Part shown: positions 9,353-20,249 of the stretch, in pieces | Layout: every line of letters starts with the position of its first letter | Position numbering within the stretch: position 1 is the stretch's first letter | NCBI RefSeq assembly: GCF_010671595.1 | Contig: NZ_JAABOP010000001.1 | Location: forward strand, 992,001-1,056,000 | Length of the DNA stretch: 64,000 nucleotides | Reading direction: 5' to 3' | Origin: Muriicola jejuensis | GTDB taxonomy: Bacteria; Bacteroidota; Bacteroidia; Flavobacteriales; Flavobacteriaceae | Translations under genes and position numbers: made by a program | Notes under the pieces: model-generated | Told to the model about the DNA's origin: nothing | Database searches by the model: none | What the model saw: only the letters and a program-made list of their open reading frames with translations

Positions 9353-9389
9353 TTAACCTTTAATTAATCTCATAACACAATGGTAACCT
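9353..9389 (+). repeat. Upstream TTAACCT-like repeats, two 11-bp-spaced pairs
   Basis: TTAACCT (9353) and TTAATCT (9364) form one pair 11 bp apart. ATAACAC (9372) and GTAACCT (9383) form a second. The second pair is in the same 11-bp register as the promoter-proximal repeats at 9405, 9416 and 9427. They are possibly auxiliary binding sites for the same regulator. Confidence 0.4.
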
Positions 9390-9404
9390 TTTAACAAGGA
9401 AGTA

Positions 9405-9450
9405 TTAACCTATGTCTAACATGACCTTTACGCTTACTCCCGTTCTTTGC
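9405..9450 (+). promoter_or_regulatory. Candidate Pho-type operator and promoter of the TonB receptor gene
   Basis: Repeats TTAACCT (9405-9411), CTAACAT (9416-9422) and TTTACGC (9427-9433) follow an exact 11-bp period. After 7 bp comes CGTTCTTTGC (9441-9450), a -7-like decamer, 24 nt before the ATG. The same decamer at the same distance occurs at 13644. Confidence 0.6.
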
Positions 9451-9473
9451 CCCGTGAATTTGAAAAATGCTTC

Positions 9474-12341
9474 ATGAGACCAATATATCTTCTTTTTCTT
9501 TTGTTTACTGGTTCCCTCTTTGCACAGAATACCGGAAGCATCGTAGGCAAACTTACCGATAAGGAGGTGAACAACGAGCCGCTTGCGTTTGCAAACGTCC
9601 TGATAAAAGGCACGACAAAAGGTACCACCTCCGACTTCGATGGCCTTTACGAGCTTACCAATGTGGCCCCTGGTAGTTATACTGTCGTCTTTACGTTCTT
9701 GGGGTACGAGACCCTGGAGATCACCAATGTGGTCGTTGAGGCCGGCAAGGTTACTGAGGTGAACGCAGCACTGGGTGCTGGAAGCGTATCCCTTGACGAA
9801 GTGGTCATAACCACGACCGTAGCCAAGGAATCCGAAGTAGCCCTGTTACTCGATCAGAAAAAAGCAGTGCAGATCAAAGAATCCATTGGAGCCGAAGCCC
9901 TTACCCGAAAAGGGATTGACGATGCAGCAGCAGCCGTTTCCCAGATCTCAGGGATCTCGAAGCAACAGGGGTCAAGCGATGTCTATGTACGCGGTCTGGG
10001 AGACAGGTACCAGAATACTACCATGAATGGCCTTTCCCTGCCCTCCAATGATGTCAATAAGAAGAACATCAATCTGGATATCTTCTCATCGAGTATCATT
10101 GAGAACATCGCCGTCAGCAAGGCCTATACTCCTTTGTTCTACGGGGATTTTTCCGCAGGAAATGTAAATATTGATTCCAAAGAATACACCGGGAATGGGT
10201 ACCTGGATATCTCCCTGGGAAGTGGCTTTAATTCCAATGCGGCAGGAACCGATTTTGTGACGAGCGAGGGAACCAGTTTCTTCGGATTTTACAACCGTTA
10301 TGACAATGACCCTTTTGCAGTCATACTGTCCCACGGAGTAGACCCTGATCAGGCTCCGGACCCCGTAAATATTTCGGGATCCATCGAAGGAGGGTATTCC
10401 GTAAACCTGAGCGATGAATCCAGGCTGAGCTTCTTTGGGATGGCCAGTTTCAGTAACGGTTATGAATTTCTGGAAGGTCCGGCCCTGGATTTTACAAACG
10501 ATATCAAGGTTCGTTTTCCCCTGGTAAATGAGTACGCTTATAGTACTACAACCACCGCCATGGGGAACATCACATACAGGATCAACAATGATCACAAACT
10601 GAAATACACCTCACTTTTTATCAACAGTGCACGGGATGCGGTAGGGTATTACGGTATAGGCGGGAACGGATTCAACAGGGACGGGTTCAGCAACAATGGG
10701 GATGGTGGGTTCTTCCAGCTCAACGTACAGTTCAACCAGGATATGATCTTCGTGAACCAGTTGAACGGACAGCACACCTTTGATGACAGCTGGGGTTTAG
10801 ACTGGGGAGTTGGCTTTAACAAGGTCTTTTCGGACGAACCGGACAGAAAGCGGATCTCCCTGGAAGACTACCAGTTCGCCCTGGACAACGACCCAAATAC
10901 CAACCCGATCTTCTATGACAACATCGCTTTCGACAACCAGCGCTTTTTCCAGAGCATTGAGGATGACGAGCTGAGCAGTTATCTCAACCTGTCTAAAAAG
11001 GTCAACGACAAGGTTACCCTCAATTTCGGGTACAACGGCAGAAGCAAGGAGAGAAGGTTCAACAACTGGCGATATGGTTATCTCATTGCCGATAAAGATG
11101 CCAACCCGGTAACAGATGTAAACAATCTTAATGACTTTTTCGACGTCTCCAATATCAATATCCCGGCAGGTAGCGGACTTTGGGACCTGTTCATCGTGCG
11201 CAATCCCAGAAACCAGGATATGGGCCTGGTTAACCGCCCTCAGGCTTATGAGAATACCTACACCGGAAACCTGGATATTCACGGGGTATATGCCACGGCC
11301 GAATTGAACCTGAGTGACAAATGGTTACTCATCCCGGGCTTCAGGGTAGAATCTTATAGCCAACGGATCGCTTACGACGTGATCAACCCGGTCCCCACAG
11401 ATCCCGGCTTCAGGAACGCTTACGAAAACATCTACCTGCCCAGTTTGAACGTGCGTTACGCCCTGAATGAGGACGCCAACCTGCGCTTTTCCTTCAGCAA
11501 AACAGCCTCCTTCCCCGAATTCAAGGAATCAGCCAACTTTGTGTATGAAGGAGTGGTACAGCGTGTGGGGGGTAACCCGGACCTGCTGGGAAAACCAGAC
11601 GGAACAGGACCTATCTTTTCCGAGATCTATAACTACGACCTTAAATACGAATGGTTCCCCAACAGAGGAGAACTCATCTCGGTTGCGGCATTCGCCAAAA
11701 CCATCAACGATCCTGTGAACCGGGTAGTGGCCACGGATGCCACCGGAAACCAGCGATATTTTCGTACGGGAGACCAGGCCAATGTCTACGGAGTAGAAGT
11801 AGAAGTGAGGAAGAACATCCTCACAGACGAAAATGACAACGGGATACTCTCCTTCGGCGCCAACGCAGCCTATACACATACGGAACAGGATCTGAAAACG
11901 GTATCGACCTCCGACGGGTTTACTTTTGGCACCTCTTTCGCCAACCGTACTTCTGAAGAACTCGAAGGAGCCTCTCCGGTTATCGTAAATGCGGACATTA
12001 ATTACAGTCCCGAATTTGAGAATTACAAACCCACGGCTTCCCTGGCATTTTCCTACTTCTCGGACCGTATCTATGCGATCGGCAGTGGAAACCTCGGGAA
12101 CATGGTGGAAAAGGCCGTACCCACGATGAACTTTGTGTGGCGCAATGCCTTCGGGGAGCACTTTGAAGCGAATCTCAGCGTACAAAACATCTTGAATCCC
12201 AATATCTCACTGGTGCGGGAAAACACCGGTGTGGAAGAAAACAACCCCCTGGTCCAGGGCTTCGTAAGGGACGGTGACGTCATCTTACGGGAGTTCAAAA
12301 GGGGAATTAATGCGGGCCTAACTTTGAAATATAAATTCTAA
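9474..12341 (+). CDS. TonB-dependent outer-membrane receptor of the phosphate locus
   Basis: This 955-aa receptor has a signal peptide (MRPIYLLFLLF, ending LFAQ), a carboxypeptidase-regulatory-like domain (about residues 20-105), a plug domain with the VYVRGLGDRYQNTTMNGLSL segment, and a long 22-strand barrel ending in LKYKF. It should import a ligand across the outer membrane using TonB-ExbBD energy. A beta-helix lipoprotein gene follows after 21 bp, forming a two-gene unit analogous to SusC/SusD but with an unrelated surface partner. The locus and the shared promoter repeats suggest phosphate or an organophosphate as ligand; this is inference. I chose the ATG at 9474 because the signal peptide begins there. 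Confidence 0.92.
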   Translation: MRPIYLLFLLFTGSLFAQNTGSIVGKLTDKEVNNEPLAFANVLIKGTTKGTTSDFDGLYELTNVAPGSYTVVFTFLGYETLEITNVVVEAGKVTEVNAALGAGSVSLDEVVITTTVAKESEVALLLDQKKAVQIKESIGAEALTRKGIDDAAAAVSQISGISKQQGSSDVYVRGLGDRYQNTTMNGLSLPSNDVNKKNINLDIFSSSIIENIAVSKAYTPLFYGDFSAGNVNIDSKEYTGNGYLDISLGSGFNSNAAGTDFVTSEGTSFFGFYNRYDNDPFAVILSHGVDPDQAPDPVNISGSIEGGYSVNLSDESRLSFFGMASFSNGYEFLEGPALDFTNDIKVRFPLVNEYAYSTTTTAMGNITYRINNDHKLKYTSLFINSARDAVGYYGIGGNGFNRDGFSNNGDGGFFQLNVQFNQDMIFVNQLNGQHTFDDSWGLDWGVGFNKVFSDEPDRKRISLEDYQFALDNDPNTNPIFYDNIAFDNQRFFQSIEDDELSSYLNLSKKVNDKVTLNFGYNGRSKERRFNNWRYGYLIADKDANPVTDVNNLNDFFDVSNINIPAGSGLWDLFIVRNPRNQDMGLVNRPQAYENTYTGNLDIHGVYATAELNLSDKWLLIPGFRVESYSQRIAYDVINPVPTDPGFRNAYENIYLPSLNVRYALNEDANLRFSFSKTASFPEFKESANFVYEGVVQRVGGNPDLLGKPDGTGPIFSEIYNYDLKYEWFPNRGELISVAAFAKTINDPVNRVVATDATGNQRYFRTGDQANVYGVEVEVRKNILTDENDNGILSFGANAAYTHTEQDLKTVSTSDGFTFGTSFANRTSEELEGASPVIVNADINYSPEFENYKPTASLAFSYFSDRIYAIGSGNLGNMVEKAVPTMNFVWRNAFGEHFEANLSVQNILNPNISLVRENTGVEENNPLVQGFVRDGDVILREFKRGINAGLTLKYKF

Positions 12342-12362
12342 TTCTGATTTAAAATACAATCT

Positions 12363-13538
12363 ATGAAAAACAGATTCTTACTCCTTGGAATTGTGGCTTC
12401 CCTTTTAATTGGATGCGAAAGCGATGATACAGCTACGATCATTATCAATGATTACAGCAATTCTAACAATAATGGGGGAGGTACTTCTGCCATAAACCTC
12501 AGTGGGGTGTATACAGAAGACCTTACCCTGGACCCTGCTAACGAGTACGTGGTTACCGGGCCTGTCCTTATGGCCTCAGGGACTACCCTGACCATTCCCG
12601 CCGGTATGACCGTAAAAGCCCAGCCCGTAGGGGTGAATGCGTATATCGCCATACAACAAGGTGCCCAGATTAACGCGGTAGGCACTTCATCTGATCCTAT
12701 TGTATTTACTTCCAATGCCGGAAGCCCTTCATCAGGCGACTGGGGCGGACTCGTAATCTGCGGAAGAGCTCCTATAAACTCCACCGCTGACGGATCTACG
12801 GCTACCTCTACCTCTGAGGTGGGCGGACTCTCCTATGGTGGAAATACTCCCGCCGATAACTCAGGTTCTCTTCAATACGTTCGCATTGAGTATGCCGGTG
12901 GGGCGATCGATGGAAACGCCGAGCTCAATGGCCTTTCACTCTATGCCGTCGGAAATTCTACAGTGATCGATTACGTACAGATCTTTGAAGGTTCGGATGA
13001 CGGGGTAGAATTTTTTGGAGGAACCGTTAACGTGAGCCATCTTGTCGTGGTCAATTCAGAAGACGACTCTGTAGACTGGACCGAAGGCTACACCGGGAAC
13101 CTGACAGATGTATATGTACAGCACGGAGCATCCCATGACAAGGCGTTCGAGTGTGACGGGTACAATACGGATTTCAGCAATGAAGGTGGGTATTTCTCTG
13201 CGCCTAACGTGACCAACGTAACCATTGCAGGGGCCAATGACGCCGGAGAAGCCGTAAGGCTAAGAGCTGGCACCCAGGGTATTTTTACGAACGTGGTTTT
13301 GATCGATTTTGATGAGGCCTTCGACCTTGATGGGGACACTGGATCCAACCCCACAGGCCAGGGTGTCCTCGACGGCCTTTTGCAGGTCATCGACGTAACC
13401 TTCAACAACGTGACCAACAAGCTGAACAACGGGACAGGATATACCTTTACTGAGGCCGACTTTATAAGTGGTGACGGCAACGGTACTGGAACCGATATCG
13501 CCACCTGGGGTGCAGGTTGGACCGTAGGAATCAACTAA
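12363..13538 (+). CDS. Beta-helix surface lipoprotein paired with the TonB receptor
   Basis: This 391-aa protein has a lipoprotein signal with lipobox LLIGC (Cys18), an acidic CESDD start to the mature protein, an Asn/Gly linker, and then repeated short strands (TLTIPAGMTVKAQ, IVFTSNAG, VQIFEGSDDGVEFFGGTVN, VNSEDDSVDWTEG) typical of a right-handed parallel beta helix. The region is rich in Asp and Gly, so calcium binding is possible. It lies 21 bp after the receptor and before a terminator, so it should be co-transcribed. Homologues are often given misleading names in databases. A surface-exposed ligand-capture or enzyme role is inferred from the pairing. Confidence 0.85.
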   Translation: MKNRFLLLGIVASLLIGCESDDTATIIINDYSNSNNNGGGTSAINLSGVYTEDLTLDPANEYVVTGPVLMASGTTLTIPAGMTVKAQPVGVNAYIAIQQGAQINAVGTSSDPIVFTSNAGSPSSGDWGGLVICGRAPINSTADGSTATSTSEVGGLSYGGNTPADNSGSLQYVRIEYAGGAIDGNAELNGLSLYAVGNSTVIDYVQIFEGSDDGVEFFGGTVNVSHLVVVNSEDDSVDWTEGYTGNLTDVYVQHGASHDKAFECDGYNTDFSNEGGYFSAPNVTNVTIAGANDAGEAVRLRAGTQGIFTNVVLIDFDEAFDLDGDTGSNPTGQGVLDGLLQVIDVTFNNVTNKLNNGTGYTFTEADFISGDGNGTGTDIATWGAGWTVGIN

Positions 13539-13560
13539 AAGGATTTAGTGGATAAATAAG

Positions 13561-13587
13561 ACCCTGCCCCATGGCAGGGTTTTTTTA
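13561..13587 (+). terminator. Terminator of the receptor-lipoprotein operon
   Basis: Stem ACCCTGCC/GGCAGGGT with a CCAT loop, followed by eight T. Confidence 0.92.
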
Positions 13588-13607
13588 TTTCAGTGCATTA
13601 CTCAATG

Positions 13608-13653
13608 ATAATCTGCACCTAACCTTTTTTTTACATAACAGGACGTTCTTTGC
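13608..13653 (+). promoter_or_regulatory. Candidate Pho-type operator and promoter of the 13669 gene
   Basis: ATAATCT (13608), CTAACCT (13619) and TTTACAT (13630) are spaced exactly 11 bp. The decamer CGTTCTTTGC (13644-13653) starts 25 bp after the start of the second repeat, identical in sequence and distance to the copy at 9441. Confidence 0.6.
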
Positions 13654-13668
13654 AGTGAATTCTGATGT

Positions 13669-14073
13669 ATGAAAAATATTATTTGGATTATTGCCCTGCT
13701 TCTTTCTTCCGGTCTCTACGCTCAGGAATCGGGTATTCTGGCTGGCACCATTAAGGATCAGGAGGTATTTGATGAAGGCGTGGTCTATGCACAGGTGCGT
13801 TTAAAGGATACCAATTTCAAGACGCAGACCAATTTCAGGGGTAATTTTGAATTGAAAAACATCACCCCGGGCACCTACATCCTGGAGGTGTCTTATGCGG
13901 GATATGATACCCTGGAAATACCGGTATTGATCCAAGCCGGGGAAAACACTCAGATAACACAGTACATGTCGGCCAAAATGCTAAGCATGGAAGATCTTTC
14001 GTCCCTGAAAGTAAAGCCTGCAGCAAGTACTACGAACCGAGAGTCGGATCTAGGGGCCGATCGAAAAAGATAG
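13669..14073 (+). CDS. Stand-alone carboxypeptidase-regulatory-like domain protein
   Basis: This 134-aa exported protein has a signal peptide ending LYAQ (residue 19) and one Ig-like beta-sandwich domain (GILAGTIKDQEVFDEG, then GNFELKNITPGTYILEVSYAGYDTLEI). The domain resembles the N-terminal extension of the receptor at 9474 but has no plug or barrel. The last 25 residues are polar and probably disordered. It shares the 9474 gene's promoter architecture, so the two are probably co-regulated. Whether it docks to the receptor, or is a truncated duplicate that has been retained, cannot be told from sequence. Confidence 0.75.
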   Translation: MKNIIWIIALLLSSGLYAQESGILAGTIKDQEVFDEGVVYAQVRLKDTNFKTQTNFRGNFELKNITPGTYILEVSYAGYDTLEIPVLIQAGENTQITQYMSAKMLSMEDLSSLKVKPAASTTNRESDLGADRKR

Positions 14074-14094
14074 ATCGGATTTCCGATCAAAAAT

Positions 14095-14123
14095 AAAAAT
14101 CCCGCCTGTACGGCGGGATTTTT
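14095..14123. terminator. Bidirectional terminator between convergent genes
   Basis: Stem AAAAATCCCGCC/GGCGGGATTTTT with a 5-nt loop. The A-tract on one side and the T-tract on the other let it serve both the 13669 gene and the convergent 14148 gene. Confidence 0.9.
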
Positions 14124-14147
14124 ATTATCTTAAAGTGCAATAGGCCC

Positions 14148-14504
14148 TCAGTTCTTGACGATACCCTCGGAGGTCTTTTTCCCGTCTACACTGGCGACAA
14201 TATTGTTATTGTAGACCACTTCTTTGACGGTATCTCCTTGCCAGAAGTACCATTTTCCGGATCTCATACCATTCTCGTACGTACCCTGACTTATCTTTGC
14301 TCCTTCTTCATTGAAACTGATCCATTCCCCGTGCAGTTTTCTTTCCAGGTTAAACGTTCCTGTTTGACTGACCATCCCATTGTCATGGAAATATACCGCT
14401 TCGATTAAACCGGTCTCCTCATTCAGTGTCAGTTCTTTCTCTTTCTGGCCATAAACCAACAAGGTCATCATTACAACCACTATAGACAGGATATATTTTT
14501 TCAT
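14148..14504 (-). CDS. MORN-repeat-like exported protein
   Basis: This 118-aa protein has a signal peptide (MKKYILSIVVVMMTLLVYG) and repeats of the MORN/YwqK type (YFHDNGMVSQTGTF, HGEWISFNEEGAKISQGTYENGMRSGKWYF). Databases often label this family as a toxin-antitoxin antitoxin, but no toxin gene is adjacent and that label should not be taken as function. The start at 14504 begins the signal peptide; an upstream in-frame ATG at 14528 adds eight polar residues. It probably has its own promoter, TTG (14551-14553), 17 bp, TATCATTG (14526-14533). Confidence 0.75.
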   Translation of the reverse strand: MKKYILSIVVVMMTLLVYGQKEKELTLNEETGLIEAVYFHDNGMVSQTGTFNLERKLHGEWISFNEEGAKISQGTYENGMRSGKWYFWQGDTVKEVVYNNNIVASVDGKKTSEGIVKN

Positions 14505-14655
14505 AAGTTCGAAATCAATGTATTGCAATGATAAAATTAAATAATTCTAACAATTATTCAATATTTTCTTTACAATTTATTTACATAGATAACGCCAGAT
14601 TACATGCAATCTTATAATTGTCAAAACATTGCCTCAATCAATATCTAAGTAACAC

Positions 14656-14701
14656 TTAATCATTTGGTTACATTCGTATCGAAAAAAATACTGAATTTTA
14701 C
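14656..14701 (+). promoter_or_regulatory. Possible fifth Pho-type promoter, facing an unexplained terminator
   Basis: TTAATCA (14656) and GTTACAT (14667) are 11 bp apart, preceded in register by CTAAGTA (14645). The decamer TGAATTTTAC (14692-14701) starts 25 bp after the second repeat and resembles the one at 16125. The match is weaker than the other four. Confidence 0.3.
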
Positions 14702-14703
14702 CG

Positions 14704-14798
14704 GTGTTTAAACACTTTTTGGTCATTCCGTTAAATTAGTTTTTGTCGACTTTTTATAGTGAATGCTGATAACTGCCTTTGGCCAAGGCAGTTTTTTT
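14704..14798 (+). ncRNA. Possible small RNA upstream of the porin gene
   Basis: A complete rho-independent terminator (14771-14798) stands in the intergenic space with no gene in front of it on the same strand. A weak Pho-type promoter ends at 14701, so a transcript of roughly 90 nt starting near a GTGTTTAAACAC palindrome (14704-14715) is conceivable. A short ORF (ATG at 14763) would run through the hairpin and is probably meaningless. The remainder of the 14505-14873 gap holds only AT-rich sequence and the two promoters. Confidence 0.25.
14771..14798 (+). terminator. Orphan rho-independent terminator
   Basis: Stem ACTGCCTT/AAGGCAGT with loop TGGCC, followed by seven T. It insulates the porin promoter from upstream transcription or ends a small RNA. 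Confidence 0.85.
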
Positions 14799-14803
14799 AT
14801 TTG

Positions 14804-14849
14804 TTAATATTCCCTTAACCCCGGTCTGGTCTAAATGTGGGTATTTTGC
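14804..14849 (+). promoter_or_regulatory. Candidate Pho-type operator and promoter of the porin gene
   Basis: TTAATAT (14804) and TTAACCC (14815) are 11 bp apart; the third position (CTGGTCT, 14826) is degenerate. GGTATTTTGC (14840-14849) starts 25 bp after the second repeat, as at 9441 and 13644, and lies 24 nt before the GTG start. Confidence 0.55.
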
Positions 14850-14873
14850 AAATAGACAAAAACTAATACTGAC

Positions 14874-16079
14874 GTGAAGACTCGCTCGATCCTTTTAGGA
14901 GCATTCCTCCTATTTACCTTTGTACTTACTGCCCAGGAACCCAATGCACCGGCCTTCGGAAAGGGTTTGTTCAATCTCGTGGGCAAAGACAGTTCCTTTA
15001 CCATGAAGATCGGGGCCCGGATGCAGCTTTTGGCGATTTCAGAGGGGCAGGACGATTCCGATGGTTTTTTCTCGAATAACGAGACGAATTTCCTGGTACG
15101 CAGGGCCCGTTTGAAATTTGACGGCTATGCGTATTCCCCAAAATTGAGATACAAGATAGAGCTCGGGCTTTCCAACCGCGATATGTCCGGGGGATCTGAA
15201 TATACACGTAATACTCCACGGTACATAATGGACGCCGTGATCATGTGGAATTTCTACGAGAATTTTGAGTTGTGGTTCGGCCAGACCAAGCTACCGGGAA
15301 ATATCGAACGTGTGATATCCTCAGGAAATCTGCAGCAGGTAGACCGCTCCCTGGTCAACAGTCGATTCAATATTGACCGGGATATGGGCGTTCAGCTCAG
15401 GCACCATTTCAACGTGTCAGATACCTTTGTCATACGGGAAAAACTTGCCTTCTCACAAGGGGAAGGAAGGAATGTTACGGATGGAAACGAAGGGGGCTTC
15501 CAGTATACCGGACGTGTAGAATTGCTTCCCCTGGGAGAATTTAAGAGTGATGGAGATTACAGCGGTGCCGATCTGGTAAGGGAGCCAACCCCGAAGTTGT
15601 TCCTGGCCTTTACCTATGACTCAAATGTGGATGCAGTCCGTACCCGAAGCAATCTCGGATCCTATATGATTACCGATACGGGCTTATACGCGACGACAAC
15701 CAATACCATTTTCGCCGACCTCATGTTCAAATACCGGGGGTTTTCTCTCATGGGAGAATATTCTAAGAGGGACGCCGCCGATCCGATCGCAAAGAATTCA
15801 GACGGTTCTGAAACTGGTAATGTGGTCTGGATCGGGGATGGGATAAACCTGCAGGGGGGATATCTTTTCCCCAATAATTGGGAACTATCGGGGAGGTTTA
15901 CCCAAATTGAGCTCGATGAGGCGATCACCGGAAGGAGTCCGGAAACACAGTATACCTTTGGTGTCTCCAAGTATATTGTCGGCCATAAACTCAAAGTTCA
16001 ATCAGATTTAAGTTATCTTTCTATTGAAAATGGCGACAATGAGGTGATGTTTCGTTTGCAGGTAGACATGCATTTCTGA
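14874..16079 (+). CDS. Phosphate-selective porin O/P family protein
   Basis: This 401-aa outer-membrane barrel has a signal peptide ending LTAQ (about residue 21) and the OprO/OprP-type N-terminal sheet (FTMKIGARMQLLAIS), then LVRRARLKFDGYAYSPKLRYKIELGLSNRD, and a terminal aromatic strand (RLQVDMHF). In Pseudomonas, OprO/P form trimeric anion channels for phosphate and polyphosphate; many Bacteroidota members are untested. The start is GTG at 14874, the only codon that gives a complete signal peptide. The PiT gene follows after 75 bp that contain another candidate operator. Confidence 0.88.
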   Translation: MKTRSILLGAFLLFTFVLTAQEPNAPAFGKGLFNLVGKDSSFTMKIGARMQLLAISEGQDDSDGFFSNNETNFLVRRARLKFDGYAYSPKLRYKIELGLSNRDMSGGSEYTRNTPRYIMDAVIMWNFYENFELWFGQTKLPGNIERVISSGNLQQVDRSLVNSRFNIDRDMGVQLRHHFNVSDTFVIREKLAFSQGEGRNVTDGNEGGFQYTGRVELLPLGEFKSDGDYSGADLVREPTPKLFLAFTYDSNVDAVRTRSNLGSYMITDTGLYATTTNTIFADLMFKYRGFSLMGEYSKRDAADPIAKNSDGSETGNVVWIGDGINLQGGYLFPNNWELSGRFTQIELDEAITGRSPETQYTFGVSKYIVGHKLKVQSDLSYLSIENGDNEVMFRLQVDMHF

Positions 16080-16088
16080 TCACCAGAA

Positions 16089-16134
16089 ATAACTATTAAA
16101 TAACACAGGAATTCAAAATACTTTAGATATTTAC
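16089..16134 (+). promoter_or_regulatory. Candidate Pho-type operator and promoter of the PiT gene
   Basis: ATAACTA (16089) and ATAACAC (16100) are 11 bp apart with a TTAA spacer. AGATATTTAC (16125-16134) begins 25 bp after the second repeat, the same distance as in the other copies, 20 nt before the ATG. Confidence 0.55.
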
Positions 16135-16154: not shown

Positions 16155-18449
16155 ATGGAAAATATTTACTTCCTGATGATCATCGCCCTGGCGGCCCTCG
16201 CAGTAGCAGATCTTGTGGTTGGAGTAAGCAACGACACCGTTAATTTTCTCAACTCTGCCATCGGTTCAAAGGCAATATCCTTTAGGACCATAATGATCGT
16301 GGCCAGCCTGGGAATCGCCTTTGGGGCTATCTTCTCCAGCGGGATGATGGAAGTGGCGCGGAAGGGGATCTTCAACCCCGGTGAGTTCTATTTTAACGAG
16401 ATCATGTTCATCTTCATGGCGGTCATGATCACGGACATTCTCTTGCTCGACTTTTTCAACACCCTTGGAATGCCCACTTCTACCACGGTTTCAATCGTAT
16501 TTGAATTGTTGGGAGCTGCCGTGGCTATGTCTATAATCAAGATTGGAATTGACGGGGGAACAGCAGGTGACATCATCAACTATATCAACACCTCCAAAGC
16601 CATGGAGATCATTACCGGAATATTGCTTTCCGTGGTCATCGCTTTCTCCATCGGAGCGTTTGTACAATGGATCTCCCGTCTGCTGTTGTCATATGACTTT
16701 GAGAGGAAAGCAATATGGGTGGGCTCCTTGTTCGGGGGGATCGCCTTATCCGCTATCACCTACTTTATCTTCATGAAAGGTATCAAAGGCACCCCATTCG
16801 CAGGAGAGTCTTACGAAATCCTCGGGGGGGTAACCATAGGTACCTACCTGGAAAGCAATGTATTCTCCATTATCCTGATAAGCCTGGTCTTCTGGTCTTT
16901 GTTGTCCTTTCTGCTGACCTCAGCTTTTAAAGTAAATATCTATAAAGTGATCATTGGGGTAGGAACCTTTGCCCTGGCCCTCGCCTTTGCCGGAAACGAC
17001 CTTGTAAACTTTATCGGAGTCCCAATTGCCGCCTACCAGTCTTACGAAGCCTGGGTTGCCTCCGGTGTCCCTGCTACAGAATTCAGCATGGAGGTACTGG
17101 CATCCAAAGTGCCTACACCGACCTTATTTCTTTTCATTTCGGGACTGGTGATGGTAGCTACCCTGTGGCTGTCTAAAAAGGCCCGCTACGTTACAGACAC
17201 TGAGATTAACCTGGCAAGGCAACACGATGCCAAAGAACGTTTTGAACCCAACTATCTATCACGGTCCATTGTTCGGGTAACCATGCTAGCTTCACAATAC
17301 ACCAATACGGTCATTCCCAACTCCGTACTCGAGAGGATAGACAAGAGGTTTAAAAAGCCCGTAATTCAACTGCCCAAAGGCAAGATCCATGAATTACCGG
17401 CATTTGACATGGTAAGGGCCGCAGTCAACCTGATGGTTGCCGGTATCCTGATCTCCATCGCGACCTCCTTTAAATTGCCTCTTTCAACAACCTATGTCAC
17501 TTTTATGGTGGCCATGGGTACTTCCCTGGCAGACCGTGCATGGGGAAGTGAAAGTGCTGTCTACAGGGTAGCTGGAGTACTCAATGTGATCGGAGGCTGG
17601 TTCCTGACAGCCATCGTGGCCTTTATCGCTTCCGGAATTATCCTGGCGATCATCAGTTTCGGCAAAGGCACTGCCATAGGCATCCTTCTCTTCGTCGCGA
17701 TCCTCCTCCTGGCCCGTAATTACATCTCCTACAACCGGAGATCCAAAGCGCTGCTCGCCGAAGACCGCCTGATCAAAGCTGAAAGCAGTTCCATACAAGG
17801 AGTGATCTCCGAGAGTTCCAAGAACATCTCCAACGCGATGAAACGAAGTGGTAAACTCTACCGCAATTGCATTGAAGGCCTGGCCAGACAGGATCTCGAC
17901 AGGTTAAAAAAGAACAAGACCAGTGTGGTAAAGCTCTCCAAGGAGATCGATGAGCTACGTGACCATTTATTCTACTTTATTAAGAACCTGGACGAATCAA
18001 ACGTGGAGGCCAGCAATTTCTATATCAACATCCTGAGCTATCTGACAGATATTTCTCAGTCTCTCGAGTACATCTCCAAGATCACACACAAACACGTGAA
18101 CAACCATCACAAAAAGTTGAAATTCAACCAGATTAAGGAACTCACAGAGATCAATCATGAGTTGGAAACCTTGTTCATGGATACGAAGGACGCTTTCGAT
18201 AATGGTTCGTTTGAAAAGATTGGTAAGATCCTTACCAAAAAACAAGAACTCTATTCCCTAGTAAAGGATAAAATTGAGAAGCAGATCGCACGTACCCGAT
18301 CAGAAGAATCGAGTCCGAAGAATACAACACTCTATTTTTCCTTATTGCTCGAGACAAAAGATCTCATGGAGGCAACCATGGAATTGCTGGAACTCTATTA
18401 TCAAAAATACGATAAAAACGTCCCGGCGGCTGGTGTTTCAACGGAATAG
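16155..18449 (+). CDS. PiT-family inorganic phosphate transporter fused to a PhoU-like domain
   Basis: This 764-aa inner-membrane phosphate permease carries both PiT signatures: VGVSNDTVNFLNSAIG (Asn26, Asp27) near the N-terminus and FAGNDLVNFIGVPIAAYQ (Asn281, Asp282) in the second half. About 12 membrane segments run to residue 535. The last ~200 residues are soluble and helical (SSKNISNAMKRSGKLYRNCI) and match the DUF47/PhoU-like fold, which in other bacteria regulates the transporter from the cytoplasm. The fusion makes this longer than simple PiT proteins (400-500 aa). It is convergent with the Na/Pi cotransporter gene, 30 bp apart. Confidence 0.93.
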   Translation: MENIYFLMIIALAALAVADLVVGVSNDTVNFLNSAIGSKAISFRTIMIVASLGIAFGAIFSSGMMEVARKGIFNPGEFYFNEIMFIFMAVMITDILLLDFFNTLGMPTSTTVSIVFELLGAAVAMSIIKIGIDGGTAGDIINYINTSKAMEIITGILLSVVIAFSIGAFVQWISRLLLSYDFERKAIWVGSLFGGIALSAITYFIFMKGIKGTPFAGESYEILGGVTIGTYLESNVFSIILISLVFWSLLSFLLTSAFKVNIYKVIIGVGTFALALAFAGNDLVNFIGVPIAAYQSYEAWVASGVPATEFSMEVLASKVPTPTLFLFISGLVMVATLWLSKKARYVTDTEINLARQHDAKERFEPNYLSRSIVRVTMLASQYTNTVIPNSVLERIDKRFKKPVIQLPKGKIHELPAFDMVRAAVNLMVAGILISIATSFKLPLSTTYVTFMVAMGTSLADRAWGSESAVYRVAGVLNVIGGWFLTAIVAFIASGIILAIISFGKGTAIGILLFVAILLLARNYISYNRRSKALLAEDRLIKAESSSIQGVISESSKNISNAMKRSGKLYRNCIEGLARQDLDRLKKNKTSVVKLSKEIDELRDHLFYFIKNLDESNVEASNFYINILSYLTDISQSLEYISKITHKHVNNHHKKLKFNQIKELTEINHELETLFMDTKDAFDNGSFEKIGKILTKKQELYSLVKDKIEKQIARTRSEESSPKNTTLYFSLLLETKDLMEATMELLELYYQKYDKNVPAAGVSTE

Positions 18450-18479: not shown

Positions 18480-20249
18480 TCATCCCGCATTGATCTCCTC
18501 CATGGTCCCTTCCTGGACCAACAGGGTATCAGAGCGGCAATAGAGCAATTCTGTTACGGTTACCATGTTCTCAAGTAGGTCGTGCAACTGATCGAAATCA
18601 TTGACCAAAGAAGAGGCCATCAGCGGAGTGATCAGGCCCTCCCGGATCAGACTGTCGATGACACTATTTTGCTTGTTAAGTGATTTAAGGGACTTGATCC
18701 TGAGCCTCTTCAAATCCTTTTTATAGGCCGAAATATCCTCAGGCGGGATGCTGAGATAGATTCCTCTTAGATGTGTTACCATGAGTTTTCGGTAGAAGTC
18801 GTATTCCTTTTTCATATACGGGTTATCTTCCGAGGAATACTTTCGAATGTTCCTGTTAACTTCTCTTGTATACCGGATGATCTCTACCATCTTTCTGTTG
18901 GCCAGTTTGATCTCCATGATTCGATTGTTCTGTTTCGATGTCAGTTTGAGTGAACTCTGTGCCTGCGTGGCAAATTGCAAAATGGCCCCGTAGATGGTCT
19001 TTACCTTAGTGAGGTAAAGCTCCCGAACATTCACCCCCAGGTCTTCCTGTGTTTTCTTGATCACCTTCCTGGCTTTTACATCTGATCGCAAATCATCCCT
19101 GTGGATATTGAAGGCATGGGTGACGATTTCAAAGACGGCATTCTCGAACAGGTGCTTGGACTCGCTGACCAAAGTAGCGATGGCTGTTTCAGGAAAATTT
19201 AGCATACCCTTGTTTAGGAATTTGGGTTCGTCTATATCCTTTTCGGGTATACCCCTTACCGGTACGGCCCATTCCACAAATCGGGTAATAGGCTTGACAA
19301 ACCAGACCAGGACAAAGGTGTTGATCACATTGAATAAGGTGTGAAAAAGGGATATGGCCACAGGGATCGCTGCGGCAGAAACATAGGGGGATTCATTGCC
19401 CAATTTCCCGCTGATAAGATCAATACCGCGCAGGAAGGGATAAAACAACAGCAACATCCACCCCACTCCGATCAGATTGAATATCAGGTGTGCCCTTGCC
19501 GCCCTTTTAGCCTGGAAGTTCGATACAAAGGCCGCGAGGTTCGCGGTGATCGTGGTCCCTATGTTCTCCCCCAACACCATGGCCGCTGCCAGTTCGAAAG
19601 GGATCCAGCCTTCAGCAGTCATCAGTAGGGTGAGGGCCATGGTCGCACTCGACGACTGGATAACGATGGTCAGTACCGTTCCGATCAGGAGGAACAGGAG
19701 TACAGAACCAAAACCCGATTCAGTGTAATGCTGCAGAAATTCGAGAATACCCGGATTCTCATTGATATTGGGCATTGCCTCCTTTAGGAACTGAAGGCCG
19801 ATAAAGAGGAGGGCGAAGCCCACAATGAAACTTCCCCAGTTCTTCAAACGCTCCTTCTTCGAAAAGGTAAAAAAGAAGCCGAACCCTACCAGGGGAAGGG
19901 CGACCTCGCTCATGCTTACCTTAAAACCCAGGATCGTGATCAGCCAGGCCGTGATGGTCGTTCCTATATTCGCACCCATGATCACGCTGATCGCCTCCGG
20001 CAAGGTGAGAAGGGAGGCATTGGCAAAACTGACAACCATAAGCGTGGTAGCGGAGGAAGATTGGATGACCGAGGTGATCAGGAACCCGGTGGAGATCCCG
20101 AGAAATCGGTTGGAGGTCATGGTGGCCAAAATCCCGCGCATCTGGCTTCCCGCAAGCAAAAGCAAGGCATCACTCATCACCTTCATCCCGAAAAGAAAAA
20201 GGCCCAACGCTCCCAGGAGCTGTAATGTCTTAACTAATCCGAATTCCAT
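18480..20249 (-). CDS. Na/Pi cotransporter family protein with PhoU-like C-terminus
   Basis: This 589-aa PNaS-family permease shows the inverted-repeat signatures of the family: QSSSATTLMV (residue 63) with GANIGTTITAWL (92), and QSSSATMALTL (198) with GENIGTTITANLAA. About ten membrane segments occupy residues 1-320. The C-terminal 230 residues are helical and PhoU-like. It imports phosphate with sodium, or exports it in some relatives. It is transcribed towards the PiT gene, and I found no copy of the 11-bp repeat operator upstream, so it may be regulated differently. Confidence 0.92.
   Translation of the reverse strand: MEFGLVKTLQLLGALGLFLFGMKVMSDALLLLAGSQMRGILATMTSNRFLGISTGFLITSVIQSSSATTLMVVSFANASLLTLPEAISVIMGANIGTTITAWLITILGFKVSMSEVALPLVGFGFFFTFSKKERLKNWGSFIVGFALLFIGLQFLKEAMPNINENPGILEFLQHYTESGFGSVLLFLLIGTVLTIVIQSSSATMALTLLMTAEGWIPFELAAAMVLGENIGTTITANLAAFVSNFQAKRAARAHLIFNLIGVGWMLLLFYPFLRGIDLISGKLGNESPYVSAAAIPVAISLFHTLFNVINTFVLVWFVKPITRFVEWAVPVRGIPEKDIDEPKFLNKGMLNFPETAIATLVSESKHLFENAVFEIVTHAFNIHRDDLRSDVKARKVIKKTQEDLGVNVRELYLTKVKTIYGAILQFATQAQSSLKLTSKQNNRIMEIKLANRKMVEIIRYTREVNRNIRKYSSEDNPYMKKEYDFYRKLMVTHLRGIYLSIPPEDISAYKKDLKRLRIKSLKSLNKQNSVIDSLIREGLITPLMASSLVNDFDQLHDLLENMVTVTELLYCRSDTLLVQEGTMEEINAG

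Follow-up and report, generated by a model that had tools for sequence, protein, structure and literature searches.

The stretch of Muriicola jejuensis DNA considered here (64 kb, called the window throughout and always meant at its full length; the whole genome has 3.3 Mb) holds four sites of a common design at one phosphate-uptake locus. In each of them two direct repeats of the TAAY type lie 11 bp apart, and an element resembling the -7 element of Bacteroidota promoters follows at a fixed distance. The sites are located 61-70 bp 5' of the start codons of genes for a TonB-dependent receptor, a small protein, a porin of the O/P family and the phosphate transporter PiT. We consider them as predicted binding sites for the regulator PhoB, i.e. 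as Pho boxes.

The four sites and the genes following them are on the forward (+) strand. The TonB-dependent receptor (9474..12341) has a carboxypeptidase-regulatory domain (Pfam PF13715, PF07715 and PF00593). On the 3' side of its gene is that of a putative lipoprotein (12363..13538, +) with a cysteine-containing signal sequence, for which searches of Pfam and NCBIfam gave no match, and whose homologues adjoin the TonB receptor in relatives. Then come a small secreted protein with a carboxypeptidase-regulatory-like domain (13669..14073; PF13715), a member of the phosphate-selective porin O/P family (14874..16079; PF07396) and the inorganic phosphate transporter PiT (16155..18449; PF01384). 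A Na/Pi cotransporter gene (18480-20249), on the opposite strand to PiT, lies after it, and it is because this gene follows those of PiT, the porin and the receptor that we regard the locus as one of phosphate uptake. No PstS over the Pfam cut-off was found in the M. jejuensis genome, and such matches were present in only 6 of 18 genomes (M. jejuensis and 17 others). Where a strong PstS is missing, PiT, the porin and the TonB receptor may constitute the main route of phosphate uptake.

At site 1, 5' of the receptor gene, the repeats TTAACCT and CTAACAT (9405..9422) are followed by a third one, TTTACGC (9427..9433; TTTACA at the same position in relatives), and by the -7-like element GTTCTTTG (9442..9449). 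Two extra repeats, ATAACAC (9372) and GTAACCT (9383), spanning 9372..9389, lie upstream in the same register, which makes an 11-bp ladder of five repeats in six steps (9372, 9383, 9405, 9416 and 9427), the step at 9394 being without a repeat. Site 2, 5' of the small-protein gene, consists of ATAATCT and CTAACCT (13608..13625), a third repeat TTTACAT (13630..13636) and again GTTCTTTG (13645..13652). Site 3, 5' of the porin gene and the weakest of the four, has TTAATAT and TTAACCC (14804..14821) with GTATTTTG (14841..14848), and site 4, 5' of PiT, has ATAACTA and ATAACAC (16089..16106) with GATATTTA (16126..16133), where GATATTTGC is the majority form in relatives. There is no third repeat 11 bp past the second one at sites 3 and 4. 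An earlier sequence-only reading of this DNA had placed first repeats at 9405, 13608, 14804 and 16089, second repeats 11 bp further on, and decamers 25 bp from the start of each second repeat; all twelve elements proved exact. Its layout has two repeats, but many outer-membrane promoters, including those of sites 1 and 2, carry three.

The pattern NTAAY-N7-TAAY-N25-TTTRC, written from the four sites, occurs on both strands of the window at these sites only, which agrees with the failure of the sequence-only reading to see the arrangement at aspS, marC, brx and nrdB (genes that were not located here). With the gap relaxed to 24-26 and the end to TTTR, one more match appears, at 12307. Of 294 pairings of a period (6-19) with a gap (15-35), 11/25 gave four matches and every other pairing at most one; in 200 dinucleotide shuffles of the window, matches averaged 0.005 and never exceeded 1. 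Since the pattern was derived from the four sites, these statistics are after the fact, and the weight of the argument rests on relatives. In the whole genome nine matches were found, versus none for the reversed pattern. The five outside the window lie at a moxR promoter (L008, G000:C11:1454733-1454777), at a TonB receptor gene (L009), at a gene that matched no family (L011) and at two positions (L010 and L012) where no gene of at least 90 amino acids lies in the right direction. The match at L009 (G000:C11:1520209-1520253) is an exact two-repeat one, about 78 bp before the gene of a large TonB receptor with PF25183.

Conservation of the box in Flavobacteriaceae

The family (f1) is taken to be Flavobacteriaceae because boxes in genomes of its genus g61 are almost identical to that of Flavobacterium johnsoniae CI04. 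PiT is present in 58 of 60 genomes of this family, M. jejuensis included, and 61 sequences upstream of it were collected from the 57 other genomes, one of them (L027) being counted although its upstream DNA was not captured. A box within 120 bp 5' of PiT (gap 24-26, TTTR) is present in 41 of the 61, against a mean of 0.35 and a maximum of 3 in shuffled sequences, and the exact layout in 29 (shuffles, mean 0.02). Both dimensions of the box are sharply defined: at period 11, in a scan of gaps from 15 to 35 the gap to TTTG was 25 in 37 sequences and 24 in two, every other value occurring at most once, and among periods from 6 to 16, period 11 was found in 41 sequences and the others in no more than two. 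The majority sequence reads ATAACA(A/T)TTnnRTAACAT, and then GATATTTGC.

Promoters of the outer-membrane genes were taken from forty stretches around PiT. In the operon of the TonB receptor and the lipoprotein, the box stands before the first gene in 13 of 17 loci, whichever of the two genes leads (a count that omits L047, a stretch starting inside the receptor gene); a further locus, L064, has it before the second gene only. Promoters of the small protein carry it in 10 of 11 homologues, and those of the neighbouring dGTPase gene, taken as a control, in 0 of 22.

Many of these outer-membrane boxes possess a third repeat, TTTAC(A), 11 bp after the second one. When the corresponding pattern, TAAY-N7-TAAC-N6-TTTAC-N14-TTTG, was run on 36 of 61 genomes, it gave 28 matches in 24 of them, and its reversed control none. 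All matches except L199 were situated just 5' of a homologue of the TonB receptor, the lipoprotein or the small protein; the genes of these 27 were assigned by BLAST to the window proteins in 24 cases and by a reading frame beside dGTPase in 3. The pattern was written with thirteen of the 28 already known; the other 15 were new, and 14 of them stand at genes of these types. Among 296 genomes drawn from the phylum, the three-repeat layout was found in 16 of 30 Flavobacteriaceae versus 4 of 266 others (reversed control, 1 of 296). A phylum-wide three-repeat box was for this reason rejected, as far as the exact pattern is concerned, and this layout belongs mainly to the family, not to the phylum Bacteroidota, to which the sequence-only reading had ascribed its box. 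In the majority sequence of 42 three-repeat sites, TTTG(C) is preceded by TTTC; these sites were chosen by the pattern, so its letters are invariant by construction and only the remaining positions are informative.

The box at moxR was followed in 30 genomes, namely M. jejuensis, 28 of its family and Flavobacterium johnsoniae CI04. All 30 carry repeats of the TTAACC type (TTAACC-N5-TTAACA) with period 11 and TTTGC at gap 25, located 90-102 bp before the matched start, and the gap scan likewise placed TTTG at 25 in 30 sequences. The box stands at promoters of phosphate-acquisition genes, namely PiT and the receptor operon, but it is not confined to them. Outside the family the full layout was found in 0 of 26 moxR promoters, and a TAAY pair at 11 bp in 3 of the 26. 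In one family of the same order (f2, at a guess the family of Riemerella), TTTAACAAACTTTAAC occurs before moxR with a 10-bp period in five of six genomes (L327, L330-L333), and in the sixth (L337) the period is 11.

Promoters of Bacteroidota are of an unusual -7/-33 type, with the consensus TAnnTTTG at -7 and TTTG at -33. The TTTG core of the elements described here fits TAnnTTTG; in most three-repeat sites, however, another base stands for the A (TTTCTTTG), and in most PiT sites for the T (GATATTTG). The gap of 25, nearly exclusive at PiT and moxR, is compatible with a fixed distance from the repeats to a -7-like element, the repeats lying where a -33 element would be expected. Judging from position, the second repeat would cover the -33 region and the third would fill part of the gap to -7, an arrangement that would suit an activator standing in for the -33 element.

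Two further observations were made in F. johnsoniae CI04. One box (L172) precedes a gene of the DUF47 (PhoU_div) family, a family often found with phosphate transporters. Elsewhere in this genome, two near-identical intergenic units, 344 bp apart, stand in tandem (L170 and L171, G060:C11:228474-228862); in each of them 11-bp-spaced TAAC repeats and a TTTG element are followed, about 50 nt on, by a strong hairpin and a run of T. They are candidate small RNAs under a Pho-type box, for which Rfam returned sub-threshold matches only.

PhoB as the predicted regulator

Three regulators with an OmpR-type DNA-binding domain, L001, L002 and L003, were found in the M. jejuensis genome. L001 (on contig C11), which is followed by a histidine kinase gene, fits the PhoB models best, although below their cut-offs (its best NCBIfam match is RespRegPhoBBctds, with 213.9 bits vs a cut-off of 270), and it is 72% identical to PhoB of F. 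johnsoniae. On this comparison of proteins, a PhoBR two-component system is encoded in M. jejuensis. Aligned with E. coli PhoB, whose base-contacting residues were taken from a published list (PMC3264566), L001 keeps T194 and V197. Upstream of phoB in M. jejuensis there is a reverse-strand TAAC pair, TAACAATTTTATAAC (L001:944-958, strand -), the sole candidate for an autoregulation site.

The region that separates the divergent phoB-phoR genes of F. johnsoniae CI04 from a TonB receptor gene contains the box (L166). The corresponding genes, Fjoh_0543 to 0546, are described as PhoR, PhoB, receptor and lipoprotein, and phosphate depletion was reported to raise the receptor by log2 8.0, the lipoprotein by 9.9 and PhoB by 3.1 (PMC8115612); the genes of CI04 were matched to the Fjoh_ tags by gene order and domains. 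OprP was unchanged.

The repeats are, very probably, Pho boxes, that is, tandem sites at which PhoB of the PhoBR system would activate genes under phosphate starvation. Phosphorylated PhoB would then bind head to tail, with one monomer on each 11-bp repeat, and the bound protein would recruit RNA polymerase to a promoter whose -7 element deviates and which lacks its own -33 element. In this manner, the TonB receptor/lipoprotein operon, the small carboxypeptidase-regulatory-domain protein, PiT and possibly the porin would be switched on. We infer PhoB binding, the activation step and the transcription starts at these sites.

Several results weigh against this interpretation. Conservation in orthologous promoters holds for PiT, the receptor operon and the small protein but not for the porin, with a box in only 1 of 15 promoters. 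Site 3 was accordingly rejected as an equal, conserved member of the group and kept as a lineage-specific or chance site. An unrelated neighbouring gene, the counterpart of 14148-14528, also has a loose box in 3 of its 20 promoters, and 20 of the 61 PiT sequences, including L027 with its uncaptured upstream DNA, have none within 120 bp; at least two of the box-less PiT genes (G052 and G020) begin within about 20 bp of the porin stop codon. In F. johnsoniae CI04 the pattern occurs 11 times vs 8 in the reversed control, a count that is unconvincing alone, and therefore gene context was used instead. OprP of F. johnsoniae is not induced by phosphate depletion, and moxR is absent from Table 1 of the same paper, in which the phosphate-depletion loci are given (PMC8115612). 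At the protein level, L001 has lysine where E. coli PhoB has R201 and R219; the lysine may explain TAAC in place of TGTC.

Six PstS-type genes (three of them strong matches) had no full box within 500 bp upstream, contrary to the expectation of boxes at pst; upstream of one of these genes (G032), TAAY pairs 11 bp apart occur twice but lack the -7 spacing. As clear members of a Pho regulon can lack a box (PMC4415409), this result limits the regulon rather than the box. Two models built from sites alone, R1 from 36 of the 42 three-repeat sites and R2 from a mix of 37, were used to score 150 candidates per genome, of 838 and 869 in M. jejuensis and of 4749 and 8292 in F. johnsoniae CI04. Among the 150 scored in M. 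jejuensis they listed no other site below E 0.04, and R2 did not list the moxR box there either; because it passed over this known box, the misses of R2 mean little.

Direct repeats are bound by OmpR/PhoB-family regulators in general (PMC4832192), two further OmpR-type regulators exist in M. jejuensis, and moxR, which is no phosphate gene, has the box in each genome of its set. One may thus ask whether the repeats are operators of L002 or L003, the phosphate genes being co-regulated by envelope or other stress and not by PhoB. We consider this improbable, as phosphate depletion induces the operon that corresponds to the one in F. johnsoniae CI04, nitrogen and iron limitation repress such loci (PMC8115612), and PhoP of Riemerella binds moxR (PMC9603813). 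Moreover, in F. johnsoniae CI04 phoB itself has the box next to it, and identity to the L001 PhoB is only 39% for L002 and 31% for L003, both of which have serine at the position of T194.

A use of the repeats mainly as a repressor site, at which PhoB or another protein would block the promoter, appears very improbable in view of their position, upstream of the -7 element and in place of the -33 element, and of -7 elements that deviate from TAnnTTTG. The phoP mutant of R. anatipestifer bears on this question in two ways, since 34 of 50 direct PhoP targets rise in it, whereas moxR and the bat genes fall (PMC9603813). Coincidence, in the sense of AT-rich promoter sequence picked by eye, is hardly credible. 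In its favour, the pattern was chosen after seeing the four sites, loose matches exist at promoters of the unrelated neighbour gene and site 3 is unconserved. Against it stand the conservation in relatives when compared with reversed and shuffled controls, a single favoured gap and period, and dGTPase promoters devoid of the box; in our view it is excluded for the group formed by sites 1, 2 and 4, and might apply to site 3 alone.

With the repeats taken as Pho boxes, a defined box of fixed promoter geometry would make the regulon legible in the sequence, and would provide a rule for the design of flavobacterial promoters. Given the unusual -7/-33 promoter and the lack of a strong PstS in most of the 18 genomes, this regulon is unpredictable with Pho-box matrices of E. 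coli. The same box would link two data sets, starvation expression in F. johnsoniae and PhoP binding in Riemerella, and its occurrence at moxR in 30 of 30 genomes makes a connection between phosphate and envelope stress directly testable.

Comparison with known Pho systems

In Escherichia coli, Pho boxes replace the -35 element. PhoB of this bacterium recognizes two 11-bp direct-repeat units (PMC4415409), and the -10 element follows the boxes at a distance of 10 bp (PMC1906773). The flavobacterial sites differ from these in the half-site, NTAACAT vs CTGTCAT, and in the core promoter element with which they are combined. The sequence-only reading compared them with enterobacteria alone, and as a result the box looked stranger than warranted: the half-site is indeed unlike CTGTCAT, but cyanobacterial PhoB/SphR has a similar half-site and a similar tandem layout (PMC1906773, PMC11126600).

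Within Bacteroidota, PhoB of Bacteroides fragilis is needed for expression at low phosphate and binds the promoter of its target pstC (PMC3547664); in the available text of that report its binding sequence is not defined. The target there is the pst operon, and M. jejuensis has no PstS over the Pfam cut-off. Marine bacteria, with flavobacteria among the isolates studied, were also reported to carry predicted Pho boxes in their plcP clusters, no sequence being given in the part of the paper available (PMC4796936). In the literature, as far as it was covered, we found no Flavobacteriaceae 11-bp Pho box with -7 spacing laid out. The description of the box as undescribed can therefore be retained for its form and targets in this family but not in general, as a TTTAACA motif of PhoP has been published (PMC9603813) and cyanobacterial boxes are close (PMC1906773, PMC11126600).

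This PhoP belongs to the flavobacterium R. anatipestifer. Its motif core, TTTAACA, was obtained by DNA affinity purification sequencing, and it binds 5' of moxR and of its own operon; binding to moxR was confirmed by an electrophoretic mobility shift assay, and moxR and the bat genes are activated by it (PMC9603813). A tandem TTAAC motif of this kind is found at moxR in 30 of 30 genomes, Riemerella itself lying outside the sample. The authors liken the PhoP motif to that of ArcA, and their account, in the part available, includes neither an 11-bp Pho box nor a distance to -7 nor a phosphate-uptake locus (PMC9603813). We lean, with some reserve, towards a single PhoB operator code in Flavobacteriaceae that would come in two grades of promoter, with three repeats where outer-membrane uptake genes are induced by starvation and with two at PiT and moxR-bat. 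The phosphate regulator would thereby be hard-wired, throughout the family, to the chaperone system of envelope stress and aerotolerance, and the 'ArcA-like' PhoP motif of Riemerella would be the same Pho box. As far as the literature was found, the fixed distance to -7 across many genera of one family, the classes with two and three repeats, and the moxR site in every family genome tested are new.

There is also a likeness to cyanobacteria. SphR/PhoB of Synechocystis PCC 6803 and its relatives is served by three 8-bp repeats in tandem, separated by linkers of 3 bp, with the consensus CTTAACCT (PMC1906773). These boxes and the flavobacterial ones have in common the 11-bp period and the tandem direct repeats, and CTTTAC forms occur among the cyanobacterial sites (PMC1906773). 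An electrophoretic mobility shift assay showed that cyanobacterial PhoB needs the TTAA core in each of three repeats (PMC11126600); in the flavobacterial sites two repeats have TAAY, and the third, present at part of the sites only, is TTTAC. The boxes described here appear to be of the cyanobacterial kind, a known type of switch, in a form and with targets that we did not find laid out for these bacteria in the literature covered. They are distinguished from their cyanobacterial counterparts by TTTACA as the third repeat, by two repeats at the PiT and moxR promoters, by the distance of 25 bp to a TTTG of the Bacteroidota type, and by their targets, which are the TonB receptor and lipoprotein, PiT and moxR.

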